Below, in pieces: positions 31,123 to 33,482 of a stretch of DNA of 64,000 nt. This DNA is from Kordiimonas aquimaris (GTDB lineage Bacteria; Pseudomonadota; Alphaproteobacteria; Sphingomonadales; Kordiimonadaceae). The notes under the pieces are model-generated. The model made no database searches, had not been told where the DNA came from, and saw only the letters and a program-made list of their open reading frames with translations. The stretch spans positions 62,001 to 126,000 of the forward strand of contig NZ_JAOBPO010000006.1 of NCBI RefSeq assembly GCF_025574485.1, in the 5' to 3' direction. The position numbers were made by a program, and so were the translations under genes. Position 1 is the first letter of the stretch. Every line of letters begins with the position of its first letter.

Positions 31123-31779
31123 ATGAAAAAAGTAATCGACGGCGTTGCTAGATTTAAAAGCGAAGTTTACCCGCAACATAAAGATTTGTTTGAAGAATTA
31201 TCTTCTGGTCAATCTCCAGAAGTACTTTTCATTACATGTGCAGATAGTCGCATTGATGCCAACATGATAACGCAAACGCACCCGGGTGACCTCTTCTTGG
31301 TCCGTAACGCAGGTAATATTGTGCCGCCGCATGGCCCAGCTGCTGGAGGGACTGTTGCTTCGATTGAATTTGCAGTTGGAGCACTTGGAACTACTGAAAT
31401 TATAATTTGCGGACATACAGATTGCGGTGCCATGAAGGGCGCGCTTGCACCTGAAGGCCTAGAAGAATTTCCACATGTTTGCGGATGGTTGAAACATGCT
31501 GATGCAGCAACGCGCATTATCAAAGACAATCATGCAGAACTTGAGGGTGAAGAGAAACTAAATCGTATGATCGAAGAGAATGTAATTGCGCAGATACAAA
31601 ACTTGAAGACACATCCATTTGTTGCTTCTCGTCTTGCTTCTGGACGTGTGCGTTTGCATGGCTGGGTTTATGAAATTAAAACCGGCACAATTAACGCCTA
31701 CGATGAAACAACACGTGAGTTCAAGCCGCTGGATGGTGATACACTTCAGGCGGTTTATTCAATGACTGCTGCTGAATAG
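31123..31779 (+). CDS. Beta-class carbonic anhydrase
   Basis: A 218-residue enzyme that interconverts CO2 and bicarbonate. Zinc ligands are Cys39 (with Asp41 and Arg43 in CADSRID), His98 and Cys101 (GHTDCG). RNAGNIVPPHGPAAGGTVASIEFAV is the conserved middle segment in pattern. The ATG at 31123 follows GTTAAGGT; the earlier in-frame ATG at 31030 would add an unrelated leader. No signal peptide. Its TAG stop overlaps the AGGAGG ribosome site of the SulP gene, so the two are coupled, probably as a bicarbonate import and hydration unit. Confidence 0.92.
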   Translation: MKKVIDGVARFKSEVYPQHKDLFEELSSGQSPEVLFITCADSRIDANMITQTHPGDLFLVRNAGNIVPPHGPAAGGTVASIEFAVGALGTTEIIICGHTDCGAMKGALAPEGLEEFPHVCGWLKHADAATRIIKDNHAELEGEEKLNRMIEENVIAQIQNLKTHPFVASRLASGRVRLHGWVYEIKTGTINAYDETTREFKPLDGDTLQAVYSMTAAE

Positions 31780-31783
31780 GAGG
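31778..31783 (+). promoter_or_regulatory. Shine-Dalgarno AGGAGG pointing at an ATA start codon
   Basis: A full-consensus ribosome site overlaps the carbonic anhydrase stop. Five bases downstream lies ATA at 31789, in frame with SulP. The next ATG (31828) is 44 bases away with no ribosome site, and no GTG, TTG or CTG lies in frame between. Confidence 0.75.
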
Positions 31784-31788
31784 CTACA

Positions 31789-33411
31789 ATAGCATTTTTT
31801 GACACGCGTAATATCCGCGGCGACGTAATGGGCGGTTTGACTGCCGGTATTGTCGCATTGCCACTTGCACTAGCATTCGGTGAAGCTTCGGGCGCAGGTC
31901 CGATTGCCGGTTTGTATGGTGCAATAATCGTTGGCTTCTTTGCCTCACTTTTTGGTGGTACTGGTGCCCAAATTTCAGGCCCAACAGGACCGATGATTGT
32001 GGTTTTTGCTGGCGTTTTCGCTGGCCTGTCCGGCGACCCAAAGCTGGTATTTCTAGCTGTTATTTTAGCTGGAATTTTGCAAATTTTGCTCGGCGTTTTA
32101 AAGTTTGGGCAATATATAAAATTGGTACCATATCCGGTTGTTTCCGGTTTCATGAGTGGTATCGGCGTTATCATTATCGCTCTGCAAACAGCGAGGCTAT
32201 TTGGTCATGAACCAGAAGGAAAAGGTACAATACCTGCTCTTATCTCAATACCTGGTGCAGTATCTGACCCAGTATGGATTGCACTAGCTCTTGGTTTGCT
32301 AACGCTTGCTATCGTGTTTTTCTGGCCAAAAAGCTTAGGTAAATATATCCCTGGCGCTCTTGCTGCACTTCTTATCGGTACGCTTGTAAGTATTGCTATA
32401 CCAGGTGCTCCACTGTTGGGCGATATTCCTACTGGATTACCCTCACTGATTATTCCGACCATATCATCTGATGCAATGTTCCTTGTGCTTGAAGCAGCTA
32501 TATTGCTCGCGCTACTTGGTGCAATTGATAGTCTATTGACGTCTCTGGTTGCTGATAACATGACCAGAACACGGCATAATTCTGATAAAGAACTTATTGG
32601 TCAGGGTGTTGGTAATACTATTGCTGGTTTCTTTGGCGGCATCCCTGGTGCTGGTGCAACGATGCGTACTGTGGTTAACATTCGTTCTGGTGGACAGACA
32701 AAGATATCAGGCATGATTCATGGTGCACTTTTGTTCGCGGTTGCTGTTAGTCTGGCACCATTAGCGGCACAAATTCCTCATGCTGTTCTTGCAGGTATAC
32801 TTGTTAAAGTTGGGTATGACATCATTGATGTGGCATACATCAAACGAGCACACAGAGGGCCGCGTTGGGACTTGGCACTGATGATTATCGTGTTAGGTCT
32901 GACGGTATTTGTAGACTTGATCACTGCTGTTGCTGTTGGCGTTGTCTTGGCCGCCTTGGCGTTTGTGAAACAAACAGCAGATCTTCAGCTGAAATCCCTA
33001 GCCAGTGCTGAGCCGCGTACAGACAATGAGCAAGAGCTTGAATTGCTAAATACTGTTAGAGGTAAGGTGACCATATTTGATTTTGGTGGTCCACTAAGCT
33101 TTGGTGCAGCGGCTGATTTTGGTCATCAGGTTCGTGAGAAATGGAAAGATGGTCAGGTTGCTCTTATCCTTGATTTTTCCCGCGTTCCAGATATTGACCT
33201 GTCGGCTATTATGGCGGTTGAAACGATCGCAGAAGACGCAATACTCGCTCATAAGCAAATCATAATCTCTGGTGCTTCCGGGAAGGTAAATGAACTTTTA
33301 CATGGACTGGATGTTGGACAGAAAATACCTGAGAACCATTGGTTTGATGATCGACTTAAAGCACTACAATTCGCTATAGCGTCTCTTTCGGATAAGCCTG
33401 CTGCTGAATAA
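31789..33411 (+). CDS. SulP-family anion (probably bicarbonate) transporter
   Basis: About 540 residues: 10-14 membrane segments (GGLTAGIVALPLALAFGEASG, then GPTGPMIVVFAGVFAG) and a C-terminal STAS domain from about residue 445 (TIFDFGGPLSFGAAADF, DFSRVPDIDLSAIMAVE). SulP carriers move sulfate, bicarbonate or C4-dicarboxylates with Na+ or H+. The beta-carbonic anhydrase just upstream favours bicarbonate. The frame from ATA 31789 encodes AFFDTRNIRGDVM before the first ATG, which looks like the usual family N-terminus (MAFFD type, from memory). I therefore start at ATA; the conventional alternative is ATG 31828 (527 residues). Confidence 0.85.
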   Translation: MAFFDTRNIRGDVMGGLTAGIVALPLALAFGEASGAGPIAGLYGAIIVGFFASLFGGTGAQISGPTGPMIVVFAGVFAGLSGDPKLVFLAVILAGILQILLGVLKFGQYIKLVPYPVVSGFMSGIGVIIIALQTARLFGHEPEGKGTIPALISIPGAVSDPVWIALALGLLTLAIVFFWPKSLGKYIPGALAALLIGTLVSIAIPGAPLLGDIPTGLPSLIIPTISSDAMFLVLEAAILLALLGAIDSLLTSLVADNMTRTRHNSDKELIGQGVGNTIAGFFGGIPGAGATMRTVVNIRSGGQTKISGMIHGALLFAVAVSLAPLAAQIPHAVLAGILVKVGYDIIDVAYIKRAHRGPRWDLALMIIVLGLTVFVDLITAVAVGVVLAALAFVKQTADLQLKSLASAEPRTDNEQELELLNTVRGKVTIFDFGGPLSFGAAADFGHQVREKWKDGQVALILDFSRVPDIDLSAIMAVETIAEDAILAHKQIIISGASGKVNELLHGLDVGQKIPENHWFDDRLKALQFAIASLSDKPAAE

Positions 33412-33446: not shown

Positions 33447-33482
33447 AAAAAACACCCGGTTACATTGTGACCGGGTGTTTTG
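33447..33482. terminator. Strong bidirectional terminator
   Basis: A long stem AACACCCGGT/ACCGGGTGTT extends inward to a three-base loop. A residues precede it and T residues follow, so it works for both the SulP gene and the convergent chrR-like gene. Confidence 0.85.

Follow-up and report, generated by a model that had tools for sequence, protein, structure and literature searches.

ATA in place of the ancestral start codon in a SulP-family transporter gene of Kordiimonas aquimaris, a probable weak start behind a strong Shine-Dalgarno sequence

In Kordiimonas aquimaris, the gene for a SulP-family transporter that follows a carbonic anhydrase gene carries ATA where its closest homologues carry ATG or GTG, and the sequence comparisons make it probable that a species-specific change of ATG (or GTG) to ATA has been kept as a weak working start behind a strong Shine-Dalgarno (SD) sequence. 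The window, that is, the whole stretch of 64,000 nucleotides that was analysed, corresponds to positions 62001-126000 of contig C23 in the K. aquimaris genome (G000; 3.81 Mb, 26 contigs). On its plus strand, the carbonic anhydrase gene (31123..31779, 218 aa; PF00484, E 3.8e-49) ends with the stop codon TAG at 31777-31779, which lies in the same frame as SulP, and the bases read directly across the junction are ...GCT GAA TAG GAG GCT ACA ATA GCA TTT TTT GAC ACG CGT AAT ATC CGC GGC GAC GTA ATG.... As the first-pass annotation had described, the SD sequence AGGAGG (31778..31783) overlaps the carbonic anhydrase stop, and the five-base spacer CTACA (31784-31788) leads to the ATA at 31789..31791, from which the SulP gene extends for 540 aa to the stop TAA at 33409-33411 (31789..33411). 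The SulP frame is closed by the carbonic anhydrase TAG four codons 5' of the ATA, and our codon scan agreed with the annotation in that no ATG, GTG, TTG or CTG stands in this frame between that stop and the first in-frame ATG, 39 bases on (31828..31830). ACG 31804 and ATC 31813 are the other in-frame near-cognates before 31828, and the canonical ORF (ATG/GTG/TTG starts) is 31828-33411. Frameshift entry from the other two frames was also considered and rejected: from 31500 on, no ATG, GTG, TTG or CTG in those frames is open past the T6 run except TTG 31799, which lies at the end of the run and whose frame stops at 31826.

The position of the start can be read from the homologues. The search covered 147 genomes (K. 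aquimaris included), 51 of which matched at E<=1e-60, with loci taken for the best of these 51, and from a scan of GTDB r220 the best 80 of 207 related stretches were retained; with duplicates removed, the N-terminus could be aligned in 94 homologues, and L030 and L110, which are unaligned there, were left out. In the seven closest homologues (82-86% identity), the column of the ATA holds ATG in six and GTG in one, with AFFD next, so the resemblance to a MAFFD-type N-terminus proposed for the frame opened by ATA holds for these relatives (VAFFD once). Among the 94 aligned homologues, drawn from the best matches, residue 1 is never encoded by ATA, ATT or ATC, and all 94 have an in-frame ATG, GTG or TTG at or upstream of residue 6, a count that leaves undecided which of several in-frame starts each homologue uses. 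R10, G11 and D12, which a start at 31828 would remove, are kept in 90, 91 and 93 of the 94, respectively. By comparison, only 21 have Met at residue 14, the one encoded by ATG 31828, and not one homologue needs the 31828 position for a canonical start. Compared with the orthologue in the same-genus genome G014, the stretch 5' of 31828 has 10 of 13 residues identical, and codon positions 1 and 2 together carry 2 base changes where position 3 carries 7; this split, together with the identity, is a coding signature beyond what chance would give. Because of the start column, the conserved R-G-D and the rarity of Met at residue 14, we regard the native SulP start as settled by the homologues to be 31789, whatever letter stands there, and we read ATG 31828 as most probably an internal Met codon. 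The alignment of close N-termini that the annotation had proposed thus places the start column at 31789, and its suggestion of a mutated start codon agrees with the ATG or GTG found in all seven closest homologues, which points to an ancestral ATG/GTG that became ATA.

The SD sequence is also what would be expected in front of a non-canonical AUN start. The duplex energy at the ATA is -10.2 kcal/mol, a strength reached by only 3.9% of 441 sampled starts; at ATG 31828 it is -2.1 kcal/mol, 82% of the same starts being at least as strong, in accordance with the earlier claim that this ATG has no ribosome site. For these energies, the anti-SD string was assumed rather than read from the K. aquimaris genome. 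In six of the seven closest relatives the SD is weaker (-3.6 to -6.6 kcal/mol), and in L008, which has an ATG start, it is stronger (-12.1), which shows that strong SDs also occur without an ATA start. Local mRNA folding at the SulP start (-13.7 kcal/mol, computed like the rest without a shuffle control) lies within the relatives' spread of -9.1 to -17.9.

Initiation at AUA would not be foreign to this lineage, and the evidence comes from infC. The K. aquimaris infC start region reads AGGAGA-CTAGAC-ATA CGT AGA GGG (SD, six-base spacer, ATA), with the ATA at L115 1481-1483 on contig C1 and the first ATG, GTG or TTG 25 codons past it. Every readable same-genus locus (18 of 18) has ATA in the start column, a 19th (G009) being a contig-end fragment, and 15 of the 18 have no canonical start close by or in frame upstream; the three that have one are L116, L117 and L120. 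L116 and L117, as well as L292, carry an ATG two codons before the ATA. In other genera of the order, whose loci were the best-scoring ones rather than a random draw, ATA is found in 21 of 25, giving 39 of 43 for genus and order together. Between the upstream stop and codon 10, 22 of these 39 loci have no canonical start, and in the other 17 an ATG, GTG or TTG, often an ATG at codon 6, could serve instead. Since the infC start column is ATA in every readable same-genus locus, AUA probably initiates translation in the Kordiimonas lineage.

Two other routes to reading AUA were set aside. An extra initiator tRNA reading AUA is disfavoured, since no TAT anticodon occurs in the part of the tRNA set typed with ARAGORN (30 loci plus the fetched C1 stretches; Rfam matches total 41). 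A-to-I editing, which would turn AUA into AUI, appears unlikely, the site being outside the TACG context of TadA targets. As a separate observation, the initiator tRNA (C1:177-253, minus strand; L134/L276) has the anticodon stem CAGG-CTCATAA-CCTG, in which an A-U pair replaces the first G-C pair; the initiator anticodon stem usually has three G-C pairs, and this difference may bear on initiation fidelity. The 15-base stem-loop occurs in 8 copies in the K. aquimaris genome, plus one CGGG/CCTG variant, and its pattern is matched in 10 of 19 genus genomes and is not specific to K. aquimaris.

The mechanism that we propose begins with a substitution in K. aquimaris that would have turned the ancestral SulP ATG (or GTG) into ATA. 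We infer that fMet-tRNA still starts translation at this codon, less efficiently and perhaps with sensitivity to IF3, the unusually strong SD overlapping the carbonic anhydrase stop serving to place the ribosome at the ATA. Since the SD overlaps that stop, ribosomes ending carbonic anhydrase, nine bases before the ATA, probably feed the SulP site by translational coupling. The likely outcome would be that the transporter is made at full length and in smaller amounts relative to carbonic anhydrase. Against this explanation stands the finding that ATA occurs in one genome only among the 95 sequences compared, and so lacks the conservation expected of a regulatory start.

That same singularity favours the first alternative, a base-calling or assembly error in an ordinary gene whose true codon at 31789 is ATG, as does the fact that a single base is concerned, at the third codon position relative to ATG. 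However, the assembly is of high quality (26 contigs, completeness 100, contamination 0.03), no adjacent frameshifted pieces were found for 388 orthologue queries in G000, a crude test insensitive to substitution errors, and the strong SD would have to be a coincidence. In-frame stops occurred in 9 of the 388 queries, all within the first 44 aligned positions, so the query starts were possibly set too far upstream, and with the test run in the other direction the figure was 11 of 385, by which G000 does no worse than G014. Altogether we consider an error unlikely. The first-pass annotation had left the choice between a genuine rare ATA and a misread base, and the intact ORF, the normal dN, the strong SD and the ATA of infC now lean towards the genuine codon.

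A real mutation that has recently silenced or nearly silenced the transporter, making it an incipient pseudogene, is in our judgement about as unlikely as an error. ATA is a poor start codon, it is seen in one genome only, and one further PF00916 gene, matched in two stretches, is present in the K. aquimaris genome on C1. In contrast, the SulP reading frame is intact over 540 codons, the strong SD is retained, and dN to the outgroup L013 (0.246) is not raised relative to that of the seven relatives (0.242-0.273); dN/dS was left unused because in most pairs dS had reached saturation or could not be defined. At the sequence level there is no sign of protein decay, and the gene is not evolving faster than its relatives. 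Translation from ATG 31828, giving a shorter protein of 527 aa, has in its favour that this is the first canonical start and the choice of a standard gene caller, but the weak SD there, the loss of the R-G-D and the rarity with which homologues have Met at, or depend on, that position make it improbable. Least probable is readthrough into a carbonic anhydrase-SulP fusion, for although TAG 31777 is in the SulP frame with only GAG GCT ACA between stop and ATA, the in-frame stop recurs in only four of the seven closest homologues (L003, L006, L007 and L009, with two consecutive stops in L007), the carbonic anhydrase end is out of frame in L004 and L005, and no carbonic anhydrase lies in the fetched flank of L008.

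A weak working start at ATA thus remains the preferred reading, and its consequence depends on what the protein carries. The first-pass annotation had named it a SulP bicarbonate transporter. Membership of the SulP/SLC26 family stood, with PF00916 (Sulfate_transp) for the membrane domain at 295.7 bits (cut-off 23.2) and a C-terminal STAS domain, PF01740, at 41.7 bits (cut-off 22.6). Bicarbonate as the substrate is plausible but unproven, because the score on the NCBIfam BicA equivalog NF050096 was 526.6 bits, short of the cut-off of 880. The best solved match by sequence is structure 6KI1, aligned from residue 6 and named 'low affinity sulfate transporter' in the table, which we take to be BicA. 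Like the transporters of this type, the SulP of the window combines Sulfate_transp with STAS, and it adjoins a carbonic anhydrase; it differs from BicA in the equivalog score. By eye, an intrinsic-terminator-like hairpin, AACACCCGGTTACATTGTGACCGGGTGTTTT, lies 3' of the SulP gene at 33451-33481, consistent with a carbonic anhydrase-SulP operon that ends with SulP.

Rare starts of this kind have precedents in a few bacterial genes, to which SulP most likely adds one more. In published work, infC starts with ATT in E. coli and with ATC in Streptomyces, with autoregulation by IF3 (PMC5472188), and with AUA in S. aureus (PMC13009471). Like infC, SulP has an AUN-type non-AUG start behind a good SD; however, the infC ATA is shared by the genus and by much of the order, whereas the SulP ATA is found in one genome, and IF3 autoregulation is inapplicable to a SulP transporter. 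In S. aureus reporters, AUA/AUU starts reached about 10% of the expression from AUG in poor medium, and the ccpN start up to 30% of AUG in rich medium; the AUA of citZ is confined to one strain lineage (PMC13009471). As described there, citZ and ccpN resemble SulP in having AUA starts, metabolism-related functions and extended SDs, and they were studied by ribosome profiling and reporters, whereas SulP, in another phylum, is known from its sequence and, unlike them, starts directly behind an upstream gene's stop. The strain-lineage AUA of citZ would be the nearest published parallel among those compared. Streptomyces sigR is likewise a gene other than infC with a rare start, GTC, whose translation is repressed by IF3 (PMC5472188). 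That start serves the balance of sigma and antisigma factors, and an IF3 effect on SulP would be drawn by analogy. Among the literature matches listed for AUA/ATA and infC starts, no title concerned Kordiimonas or SulP.

By that analogy, SulP might have joined infC as an AUA-started, IF3-sensitive gene, so that the ratio of enzyme to transporter would shift with the IF3 level. We hold this to be doubtful, and the conservation across species expected of an IF3-regulated rare start is absent for SulP in the 94 homologues. If it were true, one base would put the uptake of an inorganic anion, perhaps bicarbonate, under the state of translation fidelity, with carbonic anhydrase staying on AUG. Irrespective of IF3, SulP points to a single substitution as a way for rare AUA starts to appear in genes other than infC, and an AUA start that has a strong SD and a gene upstream of it may be tolerated. 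For gene annotation, a caller limited to ATG/GTG/TTG would cut 13 residues from SulP, including the conserved R-G-D. Particularly, the seven relatives with ATG or GTG and the one gene with ATA form a natural set for measuring the cost of such a change, and AUA seems to have served infC of this lineage for a long time.

For a wider view of non-canonical starts, G000 (C1 1-1.2 Mb plus C23 1-180 kb, including 5,000 masked bases) was compared with the same-genus genome G014 (C1 1-800 kb plus C3 40-260 kb) over 504 non-overlapping reciprocal-best orthologue pairs from the 3.8-Mb genome, looking for sequence 5' of the first ATG/GTG/TTG that evolves like coding DNA; the same strict criterion had first been applied to 340 pairs. 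In G000, 35 ORFs of the 504 were flagged for similarity and 6 had third-position-rich, coding-like change, and after reading by eye two genes without a canonical start were left among the 504 pairs, SulP and infC, the latter with 9 of 15 residues alike, 8 changes at positions 1 and 2, 9 at position 3, and an indel in the aligned stretch. The other four coding-like flags were rejected by eye: one ORF had a stop at codon 2, in another the ATG is conserved and the leader differs at every codon position, and the remaining two resemble non-coding or antisense ORFs. In G014, 36 ORFs were flagged and 6 were coding-like, with infC again and one ORF of interest that we presume from its motif to be radC-like (G014:C3:~124263-124949, minus strand; L227). 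This ORF has a conserved N-terminus and no ATG/GTG/TTG before codon 22, its G000 orthologue starts at GTG, and on these comparisons it is perhaps another non-canonical (ATT) start. In addition, the ORF at G000:C1:~606920-607411 (minus strand) reads ATG TAG CCA, with a stop at codon 2, where its G014 orthologue reads ATG CAG CCG, and is the shorter of the two (164 vs 240 codons).
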